Shown piece by piece: positions 12,724-37,803 of a stretch of DNA of 64,000 nucleotides. Source of the stretch: Candidatus Peribacteria bacterium. Lineage in GTDB: Bacteria > Patescibacteriota > Gracilibacteria > UBA1369 > LOWO2-01-FULL-3. The number at the start of each line of letters is the position of its first letter. Position 1 is the stretch's first letter. The stretch covers positions 1-64,000 of the forward strand of contig CALRGV010000005.1 in NCBI GenBank assembly GCA_943358175.1. The letters run 5' to 3'. The translations under genes and the position numbers were made by a program. Below the pieces are notes generated by a model. The model had not been told where the DNA came from and did not search any database. It worked only from the letters and a program-made list of their open reading frames with translations.

Positions 12724-12800
12724 AGAATTGCTCTTAGCTCGAACTGTGGCGTTGATCGTCGCGTTCCCTATAACTGGGGATAGAGCTAAGAGATTTTTTT
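12724..12800 (+). ncRNA. Candidate small structured RNA ending in a terminator
   Basis: About 77 nt from the predicted start to a T-run. The outer stem is CTCTTAGCTC (12731-12740) with GAGCTAAGAG (12783-12792), a perfect 10-bp helix followed by ATTTTTTT. Inside it, GAAC/GTTC flanks one arm and CCC...GGG forms another, so the fold looks like a three-way junction. It is independent of the upstream gene because it has its own consensus promoter. It ends against the 3' end of the convergent DUF3800 gene. It does not match the SRP RNA, tmRNA, hammerhead or 6S patterns I know. Confidence 0.6.
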
Positions 12801-13428
12801 ATAATGTTGGCCAGATTTGAACCAAAATCTCCCTATGTGCAATCATAGTTCTATATTCTAAAGCATTATTTTTTCGATTTTGAATAGACCTATTTACAAT
12901 GCCAGCAATGTAATCAGCAAGTTGTAAAAGGTTGGTTGACCCGGACTTTTGCATTTTTACATGTTTTATTCTTCTGTTAAGATCAGTATTCATTTTTATC
13001 TTTAAATATTTATTGAGTTGTTTTTTGAAGTCTAAACTTCCAGTTTCATCAATCGTGACGCTGGCCTGATAAAGTTTCTCTTTTGCACTTTCAAAAACTA
13101 GACTACATGCATATTTGTAAAACGACTTTTTATCCTTGAATCTTTCTCCGTAAAGTTTAGCCTTATCTAACACAATAGAATAATAAAAAAAGTTGTATGC
13201 CATTACAGCATTTATAAAAGCTCGACGAACATTGTGAGAATTTTTTTTAAAGTGAAATTCATCTTTTTGTTTCCATCCAAGTTCTCGTTTCAAAAGTCCT
13301 ATTTTACGATCACAGGCTTCAGCTTCTTCATTATCCTCAAAAACAACCAAAGCTACCACGAATAGTGGACTTGATCCACTATCTAATTTTAATCCACAAT
13401 CACCAGATTCATCAATGAAAACAAGCAT
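12799..13428 (-). CDS. DUF3800 domain protein
   Basis: 209 aa from ATG 13428 (MLVFIDESGDCG); an in-frame ATG at 13470 would add 14 residues. The N-terminal FIDESGD and the late acidic ALEYR/LLQLADYIAG segment are the DUF3800 hallmarks. The family has a predicted RNase H-like fold with acidic residues and is often found near mobile elements and defence genes, but its activity is not established. DEFHFKK and the C-terminal LADYIAG are well conserved, so it looks intact. Confidence 0.85.
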   Translation of the reverse strand: MLVFIDESGDCGLKLDSGSSPLFVVALVVFEDNEEAEACDRKIGLLKRELGWKQKDEFHFKKNSHNVRRAFINAVMAYNFFYYSIVLDKAKLYGERFKDKKSFYKYACSLVFESAKEKLYQASVTIDETGSLDFKKQLNKYLKIKMNTDLNRRIKHVKMQKSGSTNLLQLADYIAGIVNRSIQNRKNNALEYRTMIAHREILVQIWPTL

Positions 13429-13571
13429 ATTCAGATGTGTGTTTAACTTATTATTTCTACAACCTATCATTCAAAGTTAAAATTTTCTTAAATTAATTCT
13501 AAATTCGCGTTATCTTGCAAAAAGTGAAATTTTGTAATAGGTTTAATTCAACCCATTCCTAATTTTAACCT

Positions 13572-28678: not shown

Positions 28679-29614
28679 TTAAAAACTCGGTCCAGTGGTA
28701 CAAATATGAAACGCATAGTAAGAGGCTATGACGGCTTCAGCGGATCCGGTTATTGCTTGTTTGAATTCTGAATCACAGCAATCTCCTGCCGCAAATACTC
28801 CGCGTACATTTGTCTCGCTTTTGCGATTAATAATAATTTCACTTTTCGCGTTTAAATCCACGCCGAGACTTTTAGCCAATCCCGTCTGTGGATACTGACC
28901 TATCGCCATAAAAATTCCCTGCATTTCTATTTCTTTGCCGGACAATTTTCCTTTTCCTTCCTTCAATTTCACCCTCTCCATACTCTTAGCACCGGAAATT
29001 GATTCCACCTCCGTATTAAAAAGCACTTCAATTTTCTGATTTTGACCTACCCTCTGTGCATTAATTGGCTCTGCTCTCAAAATATCTTTACGCACAATTA
29101 TATAAACTTTACTGGCATGTTCACTGAGGAATAACGCTTCTTTTGCCGCACTGTCTCCACCTCCCACCACACCAACTACTTTGTTTTTGAAGAATGCTCC
29201 ATCACAAAGCGCGCAATAAGAAACTCCTTTGCTTTCGAATTCCGCTTCGCCCGGTGCTCCTAATTTCCTATGATGAGAACCGGTAGCGATTAAAATGGTT
29301 TTGCTAATATATTCGCCGGTAGAAGTAATTGTTTTGAATTGAGGAAACCCATTTACATCCGGCAATTTTTCAATTTTCGAAACGATTTCATTTTTAATTT
29401 CCGCACCACTGGCTTCGGCATGATTATACAAGGCCATCGCCAAATCCGGACCCGTGGTAGTGATAATGCCCGGCCAGTTTTCCACTAAATGAGTAGTAGT
29501 AATGAGTCCACCTGGCAATTCCGCGAAAACCAGAGTCTTAAGCCCTAAACGAGTCGCATACATTCCAGCGGAAAGTCCGCTGCACCCACCTCCAATGACA
29601 ATAAAATCGTACAT
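28679..29614 (-). CDS. trxB: Thioredoxin reductase
   Basis: A 311-aa flavoprotein of the low-Mr type that reduces thioredoxin with NADPH. FAD site IGGGCSGLSAGMYATRLG, redox-active pair CALC in SYCALCDGAFF, NAD(P) site GVVGGGDSAAKEA, and the C-terminal GVFAAGDCCDSEFKQA are all present. It lies 24 bp downstream of the BFD-like protein gene on the same strand, so the two likely share a promoter. Confidence 0.95.
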   Translation of the reverse strand: MYDFIVIGGGCSGLSAGMYATRLGLKTLVFAELPGGLITTTHLVENWPGIITTTGPDLAMALYNHAEASGAEIKNEIVSKIEKLPDVNGFPQFKTITSTGEYISKTILIATGSHHRKLGAPGEAEFESKGVSYCALCDGAFFKNKVVGVVGGGDSAAKEALFLSEHASKVYIIVRKDILRAEPINAQRVGQNQKIEVLFNTEVESISGAKSMERVKLKEGKGKLSGKEIEMQGIFMAIGQYPQTGLAKSLGVDLNAKSEIIINRKSETNVRGVFAAGDCCDSEFKQAITGSAEAVIASYYAFHICTTGPSF

Positions 29615-29638
29615 GAATAAAATTTAATAATTTGTTGC

Positions 29639-30199
29639 TCATTTTATACCACCAAGAGCAGTTTTTCTCCTAGTTACAATTTCCATCACGCGAGTTATAC
29701 AGGTATTACAGCCGGTACCGGCACCTGTCACCGCCCCCAAAGATTCCAAAGTATTATTACCTTTTTCTATGGCTTCCTGAATATCCAAGTCCGTCACATG
29801 ACGACAATGACAAATTACAGTTTCCGTAGCCTTGCGTAAGCGCTCTATTTGTCCAGTTTTCTCGAAATAATTCACAATCGCTTTTTTCATTGCCCGCAGC
29901 GCCGGAATAGGGAATACGTCCGCACAAATGTCTTTTTCTTTTAACTTCAAAGCATCTTCAATAAACATTCCGCCGTTTTCATTTAGCATCTCCGCCAATT
30001 TTTCCGTATACTTGCGCGAAGTATCCTCACCCTCAAAGCACCAATTGAATTTTTCAATAGCATCAAACTCCGGAATTTCTCTGTCTCGGCGAACCTTTAC
30101 CCAGGTTTTGATCAAAGTTTTAGCGTCGGTGGTTTTACTTTTCCCAAAACCATCGGACGTGTGAGTTTCAGCTTGTTGTAATGTTAATTCGTAAGTCAT
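29639..30199 (-). CDS. BFD-like [2Fe-2S]-binding protein
   Basis: 186 aa. The C-terminal 60 residues are a BFD-like [2Fe-2S] domain with C-x-C (VICHCRHVT) and, 31 residues later, C-x2-C (GTGCNTC). The N-terminal 120 residues are not a family that I know (EFDAIEKFNWCFEGEDTSRK, LRAMKKAIVNYFEKTG). Such domains pass electrons in nitrite reductases, NifU-like scaffolds and bacterioferritin release. Its operon partner is thioredoxin reductase, suggesting a redox link, but that is inference. Confidence 0.85.
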   Translation of the reverse strand: MTYELTLQQAETHTSDGFGKSKTTDAKTLIKTWVKVRRDREIPEFDAIEKFNWCFEGEDTSRKYTEKLAEMLNENGGMFIEDALKLKEKDICADVFPIPALRAMKKAIVNYFEKTGQIERLRKATETVICHCRHVTDLDIQEAIEKGNNTLESLGAVTGAGTGCNTCITRVMEIVTRRKTALGGIK

Positions 30200-30964: not shown

Positions 30965-30997
30965 AAAGGCCTCGTTCAAAAAAACGGGGCCTTTTTG
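30965..30997 (+). terminator. Terminator after 30301-30936
   Basis: AAAGGCCTCGTT and AACGGGGCCTTT form a 12-bp stem (one G-T pair) with a short A-rich loop, then TTTTTG. Confidence 0.85.
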
Positions 30998-30998
30998 T

Positions 30999-31026
30999 TT
31001 GACTAATTGTTGTATTTTGTTATTAT
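30999..31026 (+). promoter_or_regulatory. Promoter for the DUF1501-cytochrome pair
   Basis: TTGACT (30999-31004), a 16-bp spacer and TATTAT (31021-31026). It immediately follows the preceding terminator and implies a leader of about 30 nt before ATG 31063. Confidence 0.65.
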
Positions 31027-31062: not shown

Positions 31063-32652
31063 ATGGCATTTGATGGGATACAAAAAGGTGCAGGAGATGA
31101 TAATTTTCCTATGGGAGAATGTCAGGAACACAGAGATGCTCAAGCCTTTTTTACTGAACAGACTCAAAAATTAAATCAAGTCGCCACAGAAGATCGCCGC
31201 ATTTCACTTGATACTGGAGACTTGCTCACTGCAGGTCTCGTTTCAGTTACCGGTCGAGCTGCAATTGAAAACCTGGCCAATAATACTCCTCTGGGTCGCC
31301 GAAAGTTTCTATACACGACTTTAGCCGCATTGGGAGTAGCTACCGGAATTACCATGAGACCGAGCGATGCTTTTGCAGTCGATCCGGAAGCAGGAACTGA
31401 TGTGCTGGAAGTGGAAATTTATCGGTCCGGTGGTCCCGACTGGCGTTGGCTTTTCAATTGGCAACAGGCGACAACCGCTGATCACACTAACGGCCCACTG
31501 AAATCTCCTCCATTGAATCAGCCGGCCGCTCCGGTCGGATATGGTATGGTACCTGATCCAAAGGGCGGCCCAAATCCGGTGCACTTTTTGCAAGCTTGGG
31601 GCGATCAAATGCAGGTGATACTTACCGATCAAGGAACGACCAGTCACTCCGACGGTACTCAACGTGGTTTCAACGGTAGCGTCGATATGACTATTCCATC
31701 TATAGCAGCCATGCGCGCCTCAGCCTTTGGCAAGGGTGCTCCACTCGCATTTATGAGCGGCAGCAACACTAATTTTACCGGGGGACTTGTTGCGGCTAAT
31801 TCTGTGAATAGTCTGAATAATCTTGTGAGCCTTGCTAATCCAAATCTCGTCGGTAAAAATGGGGGTAAGATTTTGGCGGACTCCATCGCTCAACATGTTG
31901 TTCAAAAGCGCGCGGAAAATGTTGGCAGTTATGCCAATGGTCTCAGTCCTCGCGGGCGCAGAGTTTCGCCGGGCCTGCAAAGCATTGGAGCCAAACGTCA
32001 AACTGCTCAAAGCGCCGCGCAGGAAGTTCAAAAAGTTCTCGCAACCTTAAACAGTATTCAGCAAAATCAAAACAATCCGCTCCTAACCTCCGCTTTACTT
32101 GGAGTTGAATTATTCAAACAGAAACAATTGGTGGGGCTGACTTTACAGCATGGTGGATATGATACCCATGGTGAAGCAAATGGAGCTCAACAAATGGCCA
32201 GAAACCAAACTATGATTATGGCTATGCACGGATTTCTCATGGCTTGTAAGCAGGCTGGAATTAAAGGCCGAATAGCTCTTCACGGGGACTTTGGCCGTCA
32301 TGCGGCAGGTACGGGTGATCCTTCCGCTCATCACCATATTGGATCGGTAGTTTTGATCGGAGAAGGAGTAAAGGGACCGAGAGTAATTGGGCAAGTGAAT
32401 CCGGTGACTTCTCAACATACTGGAGAAAAAAATACTTATGCCGATGCCATGGCCTATAGGAGATGGCTCAATGGTCTGGATAAGGTAAACTTTCCCGTAA
32501 ATACCACTCTCACCGACGTGACTGGGACAGACGTCATCAATAATTTTCTCCAAAAACAAACCGGTCAATTAATACGCGATCCATCAAAACAGTTTCAGCG
32601 CGAACTGATGTTTGATCCGGTCAGAGATGCAATTAAAAAAATGTTAGGCTAA
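31063..32652 (+). CDS. DUF1501 family exported protein
   Basis: 529 aa. Residues 79-105 (RRKFLYTTLAALGVATG) are a twin-arginine-like export signal, although it starts unusually far from the N-terminus (75 extra residues). The body has DUF1501 features: HGGYDTHGE near residue 361, then LHGDFGRHAAG and HHHIGSVVLIGEGVKGP. DUF1501 belongs to the alkaline-phosphatase/sulfatase-like superfamily; its substrate is unknown. In other bacteria such genes are paired with cytochrome-bearing or DUF1800 proteins, matching the neighbour 5 bp downstream. Confidence 0.85.
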   Translation: MAFDGIQKGAGDDNFPMGECQEHRDAQAFFTEQTQKLNQVATEDRRISLDTGDLLTAGLVSVTGRAAIENLANNTPLGRRKFLYTTLAALGVATGITMRPSDAFAVDPEAGTDVLEVEIYRSGGPDWRWLFNWQQATTADHTNGPLKSPPLNQPAAPVGYGMVPDPKGGPNPVHFLQAWGDQMQVILTDQGTTSHSDGTQRGFNGSVDMTIPSIAAMRASAFGKGAPLAFMSGSNTNFTGGLVAANSVNSLNNLVSLANPNLVGKNGGKILADSIAQHVVQKRAENVGSYANGLSPRGRRVSPGLQSIGAKRQTAQSAAQEVQKVLATLNSIQQNQNNPLLTSALLGVELFKQKQLVGLTLQHGGYDTHGEANGAQQMARNQTMIMAMHGFLMACKQAGIKGRIALHGDFGRHAAGTGDPSAHHHIGSVVLIGEGVKGPRVIGQVNPVTSQHTGEKNTYADAMAYRRWLNGLDKVNFPVNTTLTDVTGTDVINNFLQKQTGQLIRDPSKQFQRELMFDPVRDAIKKMLG

Positions 32653-32657
32653 AAACT

Positions 32658-35204
32658 ATGAATATTGAAAACCAACAACCGGATTCCCGCAACGAACAGG
32701 TAACGACTCAACCCTCGTTTTTCGATAAAGCTGTAACCACTTTGCGCCAAAGCGTTTCCGGGCGAGCTTTGTACTATGTTCTAGCTGCTCTGCAAGTACA
32801 AGCAGCCGCCTGTAATAACGACAACACGGAAACAAAACCGGCTGATACCTATACTCAAAGTTCTGATGTGATAATTGACGGTAAGGATTCTGCTGTTGCA
32901 ACCGGGGAAGACCCCACCACCACTTCTGCCCCGTGTCCTCAAGACCAATTATATTATCAATTTAAGGAATTGGATGTCACTTTGGATCAATGTAAAAGTT
33001 GTCATCGTCCGGGAGGAGTGGGATATAAACCGGAAATTAATTCCGGCTGGCAATGGGACGCCAGTGGCAATCCGATTGCTTCAGGAAAATCTTTCGATAG
33101 CCTTTTTAAGAAAGCGGCCCGTTTTACGGAAATTAAGGAACCATATTGGGTAGCCTACGCCAAGGGTGTTACCAAAAACACGGACGGTAGCGGTAAAACT
33201 CACGGAGGAGGAGAGCAGTCCCTCGATAATGGGCAGGTTGCTCAAATGAGTGAGTTTACCAAATCAGTGCGCGCTTATGTGCAATCTCTGGGTAATGACC
33301 CTGATGCAAAGACCCTTCCGGATGCTCCAAAGGTAAATGTGGATTGCAAAAACACTCAATACTCGGAAGAAAAGTTATTCGAAGGAATGGAAATGCTGAG
33401 TTTGCCTGAAGTGTATGTGAAATTTTTACGTAATGTGACCGGGGCAAAAATTCCAACTTCACCATTGAAAATCACCACCAAAGATCAATTGAGACAGATG
33501 ATGATGTTGGCTACGGAGGATCTAGGTTTTTACGAATGGCTCAAAACAAATTATAATGATGAAACTTTGACTCAAGCCCTAGCAAAGGACGATAAGGCCA
33601 TTAAGGCTTTGGGTACAAGCTATGGCATAGATTGGACTAAAAGAGACAATGCTGAATTGGCCGATGGTCCCGGAAATCTCTTGGTCTATATAGTCAAACA
33701 TAATCGCTCAATCAAAGAACTTGGTACCGCTACATATATTGTTGATCCCGGTATTAAACCGATTAATGGAGGTTTTGATGACTGGGTTGGTCGTCAAAAG
33801 GCTCAAAATATTACCACTGATACTGCTCCATTGGCAGGCGTTCCATCGGATAGAATTTGGTTAACAAGATGGCCTTCAACCGAGACCAATATCAATCGTA
33901 ATAGATCTAGGCTTACTCATGAAGGATTTTATGATATGGATATTTTGAAATTTGGTTCGCGCAATGTTCAACAAAACGATCCGAATGCGACATATCCCAC
34001 TTTAACCGATAAAAACTGTATAACATGCCACCGCGGTACTCCACTGGATCTGGGTTCCAGAGCTTTTACCAAATTTGATTTGGTAACCGGAAAATATAAC
34101 CCAAATGCAAAAGAGCCTGCGCCGATTTCCCTGCTCAATATGGGTCTTTACGGTCAGGAAATAAAGCATAATGCTCCGAATGCTTTGCAGCAGTTGATGT
34201 ATTTGATGACTTTGGATCCGGATTTGTCTCCGAGTGATCCGGGCTATGATCCAGATCGCAGACGTCCGTTCGCCAAAGCTATGGCAAAGATGTCTTACAA
34301 ATTCTTGATGCAAAGAGATCCTTCCGAGAAACCAAACGATGGAGAAATGGATTTCGAAGCCAAGATGAATCGTTACATGTCTGAAAATAAATTTTTGAAT
34401 GAAATGGCTACTTTCCTTCACGACAATGGGTATAATTTCCGTAAACTTGTAGCCGAAATGGCAATGAGTAAATGGTTTTCAGCCAGCGGCGAGATGACTA
34501 CCGGTGATGAATTAACTTCTAAGAGAACAATTGAGTTGGCCAATGTCGGTCCGGTACTTGCCACGCCGGAACAATTGGCAATGCGTCTCAAAGGATTACT
34601 TGGTCCGGATGTGGAAAAGTTTGGTTTAACTCAGCTCATTAAGGGTGCAGCAAATGTAGAACTTGGTGGCATCGATTCCATTGGAGTAGTGACGAGACAG
34701 AAAGATCCGACTTCAATCTATGAGCTTCGAATCGATGCGATAGCTTTGGATAATGTCGGAAAAATCGTGGTTGCAGATTTGGCAAAGAAACCGAATGAAA
34801 GGCATTTGTTCAAGGCTCTCAGCGATTGGGATAATTTAAAGCTGGAATCTCCTGTCCAGCCCGGTACTAACGAAGTAAATAAGTCGGTTGAATTGAAATA
34901 TAAACAGACAATGGCTGTGATATTGCTCCATAAACACGGAAAATATTTTGATGTAAACAGTAAGGAAGTACAGGACCTATTTAATGAATGGGTTAAAATT
35001 TGGAATAAATATTTCGACACCAAGGACAACGATAATATCGTTTCAACACATCAAGTTCCGGGAGTTGATCCGTCTGACAAATTCAGAATTATCCGAACTT
35101 GGGTTACTTTCATGGCTGAAATTATTCAGAGTATCGAATTCACTACCAGCCAAAATGATGCTGAGGATCCGAGTGGAATTGAATCAGAAAAAATAGCTGC
35201 TTAA
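32658..35204 (+). CDS. Exported diheme cytochrome c-like protein
   Basis: 848 aa. Two CxxCH heme-attachment motifs are present: CKSCH at residues 112-116 and CITCH near residue 454. The N-terminus has a hydrophobic stretch (ALYYVLAALQVQAAAC) that could be a membrane or lipoprotein signal, although the lipobox is not canonical. Between and after the hemes are long helical segments with no family that I recognise. The partner of the DUF1501 gene (5-bp gap), it probably acts outside the membrane. Heme attachment requires a cytochrome maturation system not seen in this window. Confidence 0.75.
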   Translation: MNIENQQPDSRNEQVTTQPSFFDKAVTTLRQSVSGRALYYVLAALQVQAAACNNDNTETKPADTYTQSSDVIIDGKDSAVATGEDPTTTSAPCPQDQLYYQFKELDVTLDQCKSCHRPGGVGYKPEINSGWQWDASGNPIASGKSFDSLFKKAARFTEIKEPYWVAYAKGVTKNTDGSGKTHGGGEQSLDNGQVAQMSEFTKSVRAYVQSLGNDPDAKTLPDAPKVNVDCKNTQYSEEKLFEGMEMLSLPEVYVKFLRNVTGAKIPTSPLKITTKDQLRQMMMLATEDLGFYEWLKTNYNDETLTQALAKDDKAIKALGTSYGIDWTKRDNAELADGPGNLLVYIVKHNRSIKELGTATYIVDPGIKPINGGFDDWVGRQKAQNITTDTAPLAGVPSDRIWLTRWPSTETNINRNRSRLTHEGFYDMDILKFGSRNVQQNDPNATYPTLTDKNCITCHRGTPLDLGSRAFTKFDLVTGKYNPNAKEPAPISLLNMGLYGQEIKHNAPNALQQLMYLMTLDPDLSPSDPGYDPDRRRPFAKAMAKMSYKFLMQRDPSEKPNDGEMDFEAKMNRYMSENKFLNEMATFLHDNGYNFRKLVAEMAMSKWFSASGEMTTGDELTSKRTIELANVGPVLATPEQLAMRLKGLLGPDVEKFGLTQLIKGAANVELGGIDSIGVVTRQKDPTSIYELRIDAIALDNVGKIVVADLAKKPNERHLFKALSDWDNLKLESPVQPGTNEVNKSVELKYKQTMAVILLHKHGKYFDVNSKEVQDLFNEWVKIWNKYFDTKDNDNIVSTHQVPGVDPSDKFRIIRTWVTFMAEIIQSIEFTTSQNDAEDPSGIESEKIAA

Positions 35205-35640: not shown

Positions 35641-37803
35641 TCACTTGGACGGCGGCCAAGCGATCATGAAGGCATCTCCTTGCGGCTTGGAGAAGCTCTT
35701 CGTTTTGAGACCCTGACCGGACGCCGGAAGGGGCCAGAAGACCTCGAACGCCCAAGATGCTGGCGCCGATGCGACCTTTTCGTCCGGCGTATTGCCGAGT
35801 GGGCCCTGCACCCACGCTTGCAGCGTGCCGCCATAGATGGACGGCGTGCTCAGCGTTGCGGTGAAGGGAACTTCCTCGCAGTACACCTGATATCCCTTGC
35901 CGCCAGGAGGTGCCGGCAGGGACTGAACGACATTGGGCTTGTCAGCCGTGACAAATCCAACGGTGGCCTTGTCGTACTGCGCAGAAACGAACAGGACAAA
36001 AGCTTTCGACTTCGGTCCACACTCGCTGTCGTCGCAGTCGATTTTACCCTCTTTGTCGTCGTCGATGCCGTTTCCACAGATCTCCCCGATGCCGCATCCG
36101 GGGATTGCCACTGAGCCGCACTTGCCCGTGGTCTTGTCGCAGGAGTCCGTCGTACACAGATCTCCATCGTCGCACTTCGAGGCGGTCCCACCACAGGTAC
36201 CGCTCGCGCAGACGTCACTCACCGTGCAGACGTTGCCGTCATCGCACGTCACGGCATTTGCCATGAACACGCAGCCCGTCGCCGGGGCGCACGTGTCGTC
36301 AGTGCAGAGCTTGCTGTCGTCGCACTTGACTTGAGCGTGAGTACAGGCCGGGAAGTTTCCCCCGTCGACCGTGCACGCATTGCTATCATCGCATGCCGCG
36401 CTAGAGCCCTTGCAGATACCAGCCGAGCAGGCATCATTGACCGTTCCCGGGTTTTTGTCGTCGCACCCGGTTCCAGTCAGTCCGATTTTCTTGCAGCCGC
36501 TGGCCGGGTCGCATGCGTCTGTCGTGCACACGTTCCCGTCGTCGCAGCTGGGCGCGGGTCCGCCTGTGCAGATCCCGCCCGCTGAACACTGGTCATTGGT
36601 CGTGCACGAATCGCTATCGTTGCACGCCACGCCGGTCAGCGGCGTAAACACGCAGCCCGCTTTCGGGTCACACGTGTCGCTCGTGCAGGGATTGCTGTCG
36701 TTGCATGCGGGAGCGACCCCACCTGCGCAAACCCCGTTTGAGCACTTTTCTCCCACCGAGCAGGCGTCGCCGTCGTCGCACTGCGCGCTGTTGTTCACAG
36801 ACACGCAGCCCTTCTTCGTATCGACGCACTTGTCGGTGGTGCACGCTTTGCCGTCGTCACAGTTGATCGCCACGTTGGTGCATTGCACCCCGTTTGCAGG
36901 ATCTCCCGTATCGACGGTGCAGGCGTTCTTGTCGTCGCAGGAGGGCGCACCCCCTACGCAGACACCTGCCGCGCACTGATCTCCCACCGTATTGCCGTTG
37001 CCGTCGTCGCACGCCTGTCCCGTGAGGGGAGCGTGGAGGCAGCCTTGGGCCGGTGAGCAGCTGTCATTCGTGCAGACATTCTTGTCATCGCACGTAGGTG
37101 CAGTGCCGCCTTTGCAGCTACCGCCCTTGCACATGTCGCTGCTCGTGCACTGGTCACCATCTTCGCACGCCGCCCCGTCGAATTTGGGCTTGTTGGCGCA
37201 GCCGGTCTTGGTGTCGCAGCTATCCATCGTGCAGTCATTCTTGTCGTCGCAGTTGACGTTGCCGTTCTTGCAACCTCCCATCTTGCCTTCGCAAGTATCG
37301 GTGGTACAGACGTTTTTGTCGTCGCAATCCAACGCCGCGCCAGGTACACAACCGCCACCCTTGCACATGTCGCCAGAGGTGCAGGAGTTGCCGTCGTCAC
37401 AGGTGTTGTCGTTGTTGCCGTGGACGCATTTGCCGTCCTTGGGGTTGCAGTTGTCGGTGGTGCAGGGGTTGTTGTCGTTGCAGCCCCCACTGTCAATACC
37501 TTGAACGCACTGTCCGGCCTGGCAGGTCTCGAGCGACGTGCACTTGTTGCCGTCGTCGCAGGTGGTCGCGTCCGGGACGGGGGTGTTCACACACTTGCCC
37601 GAGACCGGATCGACCGAGTCGATGGTGCACAGATTTTGGTCGTCGCAGCCGGTCTTGCCGTCTGCGCCGCCGTCGTTGTTGTGGCCGTCTGCACTGTCCG
37701 CCGCTACCAGCGTAGGGCCGTTCACAGGCTCATCGGCGCAACCTGCGCCGACGATGAGGATCACCGCACATGCGATGATCGATTTATTGCTCAGTTTGAG
37801 CAT
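35641..37803 (-). CDS. GC-rich Cys-repeat lipoprotein
   Basis: 720 aa. The signal is SIIACAVILIVGAGC with lipobox VGAGC. About 20 tandem repeats of 24-30 residues follow (residues about 52-590), based on CDDGNxCTTDxCDPxxGC, alternating two subtypes. Then come CGNGIDDDKEGKIDCDD and a 120-residue C-terminal domain without repeats. This repeat style is characteristic of Myxococcota/Deltaproteobacteria surface lipoproteins. The gene is strongly GC-rich (codons such as GGC, GTC, GAC) in an AT-rich genome, so lateral transfer is likely. The function is unknown; the repeats may bind calcium through the Asp clusters. Confidence 0.85.
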   Translation of the reverse strand: MLKLSNKSIIACAVILIVGAGCADEPVNGPTLVAADSADGHNNDGGADGKTGCDDQNLCTIDSVDPVSGKCVNTPVPDATTCDDGNKCTSLETCQAGQCVQGIDSGGCNDNNPCTTDNCNPKDGKCVHGNNDNTCDDGNSCTSGDMCKGGGCVPGAALDCDDKNVCTTDTCEGKMGGCKNGNVNCDDKNDCTMDSCDTKTGCANKPKFDGAACEDGDQCTSSDMCKGGSCKGGTAPTCDDKNVCTNDSCSPAQGCLHAPLTGQACDDGNGNTVGDQCAAGVCVGGAPSCDDKNACTVDTGDPANGVQCTNVAINCDDGKACTTDKCVDTKKGCVSVNNSAQCDDGDACSVGEKCSNGVCAGGVAPACNDSNPCTSDTCDPKAGCVFTPLTGVACNDSDSCTTNDQCSAGGICTGGPAPSCDDGNVCTTDACDPASGCKKIGLTGTGCDDKNPGTVNDACSAGICKGSSAACDDSNACTVDGGNFPACTHAQVKCDDSKLCTDDTCAPATGCVFMANAVTCDDGNVCTVSDVCASGTCGGTASKCDDGDLCTTDSCDKTTGKCGSVAIPGCGIGEICGNGIDDDKEGKIDCDDSECGPKSKAFVLFVSAQYDKATVGFVTADKPNVVQSLPAPPGGKGYQVYCEEVPFTATLSTPSIYGGTLQAWVQGPLGNTPDEKVASAPASWAFEVFWPLPASGQGLKTKSFSKPQGDAFMIAWPPSK

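Follow-up and report, generated by a model that had tools for sequence, protein, structure and literature searches.

Genes for DUF1501 proteins have been described in operons with DUF1800, which go with chitin synthase in Enterobacterales and Agrobacterium, are transferred together, and encode a twin-arginine signal on the DUF1501 protein (PMC5122149). A second described family, the PSCyt/PSD proteins, lies in Verrucomicrobia beside conserved unknown genes and has no known function, although a link to carbohydrates has been noted (PMC5615132). Here we analyze a locus in which these two families meet, in the first 64 kb (hereafter the window) of contig C5 of the Candidatus Peribacteria genome G000, which is 1.38 Mb in size and 99% complete. 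A DUF1501 gene and a gene for a lipoprotein with two CxxCH motifs, both on the forward strand, are separated here by 5 bases. Judged from sequence, they are a divergent member of the DUF1501-PSCyt/PSD gene pairs, and they reside in a lineage that has no visible means to make or attach c-heme and no visible twin-arginine translocation (Tat) translocase, yet retains a twin-arginine signal and two heme motifs. The genus is represented by G000 and three further genomes, G001, G002 and G003 (three of the four are 99% complete), and a fifth copy of the pair is found in G083, which belongs to another family of Peregrinibacteria. The two genes are as follows:

31063 to 32652, forward strand: DUF1501 protein (Pfam PF07394), 529 amino acids, predicted from its signal to be exported; homologues in G001, G002, G003 and G083
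32658 to 35204, forward strand: PSD4/PSCyt3-type lipoprotein, 848 amino acids, two CxxCH motifs; type assigned through the PSCyt3 and PSD4 Pfam matches of its Hahellaceae homologue

Comparison with DUF1501-PSCyt/PSD gene pairs

Adjacent genes for a DUF1501 protein and a CxxCH partner were found in Vibrio, Photobacterium, Hahellaceae and Myxococcota, as they are in the window. We regard the window pair as a divergent member of this group because the Hahellaceae partner exceeds the Pfam cut-offs for both PSCyt3 (DUF1588; 29.9 bits, cut-off 27) and PSD4 (DUF1592; 25.6 bits, cut-off 23.3); it also has an N-terminal Cytochrome_CBB3 domain over the cut-off. The window protein is homologous to it but not a Pfam member by score, as it falls under every Pfam cut-off and matches Cytochrom_C and Cytochrome_CBB3 alone, each below threshold. 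It does have the central CxxCH followed by an aspartate that is expected of PSCyt3/PSD4 proteins, with C454, C457, H458 and D464 invariant across seven proteins. The Photobacterium and Vibrio proteins, which match residues 390-718 of the CxxCH protein, came from a tblastn search of plasmids, while in the genome scan a wide alignment was too diverse and a narrower one yielded the Peregrinibacteria, Hahellaceae and Myxococcota loci. DUF1501 alone as a query gave no matches in plasmids or named genomes, and neither protein was matched in PHROGs or PADLOC.

The pairs of Myxococcota and Gammaproteobacteria resemble the window pair in gene adjacency, full-length homology, an RR on DUF1501, N-terminal and central CxxCH motifs, and an aspartate after the central motif. 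The Myxococcota partner is the nearest in layout, with CTACH in its N-terminal part, LPHGGG, and CTGCH in the centre. In contrast to these pairs, gene order in the window is reversed (DUF1501 comes first, while it is second in the four outgroup loci), the leaders are long, the partner is under Pfam cut-offs, no carbohydrate-binding module or LamG domain is fused to it, and the host has no detected Tat or cytochrome c maturation (Ccm) system. The Vibrio homologue, on the other hand, is fused to CBM96, LamG and GbpA_2 and has a GSDH match below cut-off. The PSCyt1-3/PSD1-5 proteins of Planctomycetes and Verrucomicrobia share the PSCyt3 plus PSD architecture with homologues of the window protein, whereas the proteins from the candidate phyla radiation (CPR) reach these models only via those homologues; the hosts of the former have larger genomes and a respiratory chain. 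DUF1501-DUF1800 operons likewise combine a Tat-type DUF1501 with one conserved partner, which is DUF1800 there and PSCyt in the window, and no chitin synthase was seen beside the window pair. Finally, solo DUF1501 proteins with an RR signal occur in three other genera of the class, in G238 (locus L029), G320 (L030) and G455 (L031), and these genomes also gave no TatC match. They differ in having no CxxCH partner nearby and in forming a separate clade, which shares 14-19% identity with the paired DUF1501.

In phylogenies, a single clade unites the five Peregrinibacteria copies to the exclusion of the other four (support 100/100 in the lipoprotein tree, 97/97 in that of DUF1501). Peregrinibacteria most likely acquired the pair through transfer, presumably inward, a direction that is read from an outgroup of only four loci at ~18-25% identity. 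The original prediction of an exported module obtained from other bacteria is thus borne out for export signals and for homologous pairs elsewhere, and transfer is likely, while its direction stays provisional.

The DUF1501 protein and its displaced signal

Membership of the window protein in PF07394 is marginal (27.5 bits, cut-off 27); its G001 relative scores 21.3 bits, under the cut-off, and those of G002 and G003 are unmatched. The Hahellaceae homologue, which aligns to the window protein, reaches 84.2 bits. The following segments were recognized on the forward strand:

31294 to 31383, forward strand: signal region, with GRRKFL (residues 78-83), a hydrophobic stretch and an AFA-V cleavage-like site at 105/106, behind a 77-residue leader
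31429 to 31440, forward strand: GGPD motif with a conserved acidic residue; G, G and D invariant in the alignment
31636 to 31647, forward strand: TTSH motif; T192 and H195 invariant
32152 to 32172, forward strand: GGYDTHG motif of the DUF1501 alignment
32284 to 32337, forward strand: GDFGR ... AHHH motifs; DFGR or DFSR plus the later H kept in full-length homologues

The alignment shows the family motifs GG-D, TxxH, GG-DTH and DFGR to be retained in a family which we take to be placed in the alkaline phosphatase clan. A sequence search of PDB found no relative of DUF1501. The signal matches NCBIfam TAT_signal_seq at residues 78-105 by a narrow margin (16.8, cut-off 16.7), and its RR, at residues 79-80, is invariant across nine homologues. 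The leader before RR comprises ~50-95 residues in the four genus members and ~48 in G083, versus 2-6 in the Gammaproteobacteria and Myxococcota homologues, so that the twin-arginine signal is indeed displaced, as had been proposed.

The CxxCH lipoprotein

Of the seven cysteines in the second protein, four belong to the two CxxCH motifs, and the others are C52, C93 and C230. Its principal features are:

32802 to 32813, forward strand: AAAC, lipobox-like, with C52; a cysteine follows a hydrophobic stretch in the four genus homologues (in G001 it is AIGC, two alignment columns off)
32991 to 33005, forward strand: first CxxCH, CKSCH, residues 112-116; invariant in six aligned homologues
33201 to 33212, forward strand: HGGG (H182), which may supply a distal ligand; cf. 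LPHGGG (Myxococcota) and MPIGG (Hahellaceae)
34017 to 34031, forward strand: second CxxCH, CITCH, residues 454-458, the PSCyt3 motif; invariant in seven aligned homologues

None of the four genus copies departs from either motif, their cysteine codons varying synonymously between TGT and TGC, and the second motif is also invariant in the G083, Hahellaceae, Myxococcota, Vibrio and Photobacterium copies. Conservation of CxxCH, on which the proposal of a DUF1501 and diheme-like pair depended, is therefore found. Among 20,000 shuffles of the protein, none had two CxxCH and nine had one. A PDB sequence search with the profile matched its second-CxxCH region to a c555 trimer (5e-6), which tells little more than the presence of the motif.

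Searches for Tat, cytochrome c maturation and heme genes

TatC, Cytochrom_C_asm (the domain common to CcmC, CcmF and CcsA), ResB and ferrochelatase were sought by six-frame profile searches, each with positive control genomes. No TatC was found in 60 relatives, the four genus genomes among them, or in ten genomes comprising the genus and DUF1501 carriers elsewhere, while 11 of 14 controls were positive. Cytochrom_C_asm was absent from the genus, and the 60 genomes yielded one match, which was below cut-off and contained stops; ResB and ferrochelatase were each missing from 31 genomes. Neither a TatC that would accompany a Tat substrate nor a maturation system (CcmC/CcmF or CcsA/ResB) that would accompany a c-type cytochrome was thus seen in the genus, whose genomes are of high completeness but not known to be closed. 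Relaxing the threshold to E 10 returned only pieces of membrane proteins unrelated to those sought (by reading, one MraY-like, one an RND-type transporter and the rest small and pilin-like), and for a further weak match at G000:C12 no intact frame could be made out.

Ten CxxCH open reading frames of at least 100 amino acids are present in 1.353 Mb (98% of the genome), and the lipoprotein of the pair is the sole exported one; by reading, the other nine start like DnaJ, UvrA, Fur-like, zinc-binding and other cytosolic proteins. Taken together, these searches leave the covalent heme protein raised in the original prediction unsupported. An enrichment of RR as a sign of a Tat regulon was considered and rejected: signal-like N termini in the genome have RR in 5 cases, RK in 6, KR in 3 and KK in 37. 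Tat has been found in other CPR classes (PMC9166423). We also observed a second lipoprotein signal, of SRRFFF type, at G000:C3:81486-83324, in this genome without a TatC match, and another RR-signal protein (DRRHFILGS) at L031:6469-7830, beside the solo DUF1501 of G455, which likewise has no TatC match.

Conservation, selection and exchange within the genus

The G001 contig is JACRIB010000076.1, identified in a protein scan of named genomes as 'Candidatus Peregrinibacteria bacterium'. Since it belongs to the same genus, the window organism can be assigned to CPR, as had been suspected; its genome is small. Every one of the four genus genomes has DUF1501, as does a single one (G083) of the 95 other relatives searched, and the CxxCH protein has the same distribution, being found in five of the 89 genomes from the order. 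Gene order is kept throughout in G002 and G003 (pepA, trxB, BFD protein, secreted Lys/Glu-rich protein, DUF1501, CxxCH protein, Cys-rich repeat protein, SLH protein), and in G001 the neighbourhood is the same as far as its 5.7-kb contig extends.

Outside the close pair G002/G003, identity of the two proteins within the genus drops to 29-46%, and the DUF1501 and CxxCH frames are open in all copies. Between G002 and G003, the ratio of nonsynonymous to synonymous divergence (dN/dS) is 0.075 for the lipoprotein (0.086/1.14) and 0.077 for DUF1501 (0.050/0.65), compared with 0.058 for trxB. Because these ratios of ~0.08 are near that of trxB and CxxCH is invariant at low identity, the pair is under purifying selection and is not decaying.

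While the pair is 91% and 86% identical between G002 and G003, it is only 29% and 33% identical between G000 and G002. In the latter comparison pepA, trxB and the BFD protein reach 77-84%, the secreted protein 51% and the next three genes 52-71%, and UvrA is 93% identical. The far greater divergence of the pair than of adjacent genes within the genus raises the possibility that the pair is replaced jointly as a cassette. Trees group G083, G000 and G001 to the exclusion of G002 and G003 (95/95, concatenated), although a monophyletic genus was not rejected by approximately unbiased (AU) tests (p 0.07, 0.12 and 0.14), and given this result, transfer of the pair between Peregrinibacteria families is a suggestion only.

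Upstream of the pair, two sites were recognized by consensus scans:

30965 to 30994, forward strand: terminator-like hairpin, located between the pair and the gene for the secreted protein before it; 12-pair stem, then a T-rich tail (total hairpin number not above shuffles)
30999 to 31026, forward strand: promoter-like site, TTGACT-16-TATTAT (count within ~1.6 standard deviations of shuffles)

Their placement suggests that the DUF1501 and CxxCH genes may form a unit of their own. Further upstream, on the opposite strand, 28679-30199 encodes a thioredoxin reductase and a BFD-type [2Fe-2S] protein, which are conserved in the genus and could be a redox partner set. A Cys-rich protein at 35641-37803, with ten CTDC (Dictyostelium) repeats and 61% GC versus ~41% nearby, adjoins the pair in three genomes. 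Elsewhere in the window, a DUF3800-IX RNA (Rfam, 52.9 bits, cut-off 36.8) at 12730-12797 on the forward strand is adjoined by a DUF3800 gene at 12799-13470 on the reverse strand (Pfam, 58.7 bits); this association is named in Rfam and is seen here in a CPR genome.

Possible function and alternative explanations

The explanation we favor, with about even confidence, is that the divergent DUF1501-PSCyt/PSD pair is an exported two-protein surface module that leaves the cell by Sec and whose CxxCH motifs are heme-free. The two genes would be transcribed as one unit, and DUF1501 with its lipid-anchored PSD4/PSCyt3-type partner would make up the module. DUF1501, whose motifs are kept, is probably a metal-dependent hydrolase. 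Since the host has no detectable Tat, known cytochrome c maturation or ferrochelatase, both proteins would exit by Sec, the twin arginine would be a retained signal feature, and no electrons would pass to a respiratory chain. The substrate may be extracellular and glycan-like, by analogy with the Vibrio homologue, because it carries CBM96, LamG and GbpA domains. The CxxCH motifs, kept by selection, would most likely form a disulfide or metal site in place of a c-heme from a dedicated system, as the genome showed no means of loading heme. Several points weigh against this explanation. The disulfide or metal site is a candidate only, and all four genus members retain the candidate distal histidine H182, which resembles the Myxococcota LPHGGG, as expected of a heme site. 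The structure models are of low confidence (mean pLDDT 42.6 for DUF1501 and 40.3 for the CxxCH protein, probably owing to too few homologues), so that the hydrolase fold and metal site are drawn from what is known of the family, and the literature searched contained no experiment on any DUF1501-PSCyt pair.

The same conserved motifs, together with H182 and the cytochrome c domains of gammaproteobacterial homologues (Cytochrome_CBB3 over cut-off), would suit a true diheme c-type lipoprotein, in which heme scavenged from neighbours or a host cell is attached spontaneously or by an unfamiliar factor and electrons are transferred locally with DUF1501 at the surface. One Parcubacterium, also of the CPR, is reported to have several c-type cytochromes (PMC5220378), so that such proteins are not new there as such. 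On the other hand, the genus has neither maturation genes nor ferrochelatase nor another exported CxxCH protein, and most components of a respiratory chain are missing from published Peribacteria genomes (PMC4736985); we consider this, the main alternative, somewhat unlikely. If Tat and cytochrome c maturation genes were instead present but too divergent, or located in missing sequence, the module could work as it does elsewhere. The RR-x-[FIL]-[LIM] pattern in all Peregrinibacteria DUF1501 proteins, including the three solo ones of other genera, is in line with such hidden genes, which are nevertheless very unlikely given the near-complete genus genomes without a match, the uniform lack of TatC among relatives, the unrelated nature of the sub-threshold matches and the lack of RR enrichment.

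The apparent absence of the expected machinery could also be explained if the pair were a functionless, decaying relic of a transferred operon. The low dN/dS, open frames and invariant motifs at low identity largely refute this view and make it highly improbable. Contamination of the assembly by a contig from a non-CPR bacterium might be imagined, as the other family members found are from Myxococcota and Gammaproteobacteria, but we discount it almost entirely, because the pair occurs in all four genus genomes, at the same place where contigs allow. The neighbourhood (trxB, BFD, secreted protein, pair, Cys-rich, SLH) recurs in separate genomes of the genus, and UvrA of the window genome is 91-93% identical to that of the other genus genomes.

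We conclude that the module is real, constrained and exported, and that it must work without Tat and known Ccm; it would either contain no heme or carry scavenged heme that is attached by an unfamiliar route. The most far-reaching combination, a functional covalent-heme protein without ferrochelatase or known maturation, with heme from other cells attached extracellularly, spontaneously or with the help of an unfamiliar factor, and the DUF1501 module being exported without Tat and cassette-exchanged among Peregrinibacteria, we regard as unlikely. If the protein holds heme, Peregrinibacteria would be able to load scavenged c-heme without known machinery; if it is heme-free, it shows a role for PSCyt without heme and would help to explain a functionally obscure family of Planctomycetes, Verrucomicrobia and Myxococcota. 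Either way, a small-genome host without the usual machinery provides a clean system for the function of the DUF1501-PSCyt pair.

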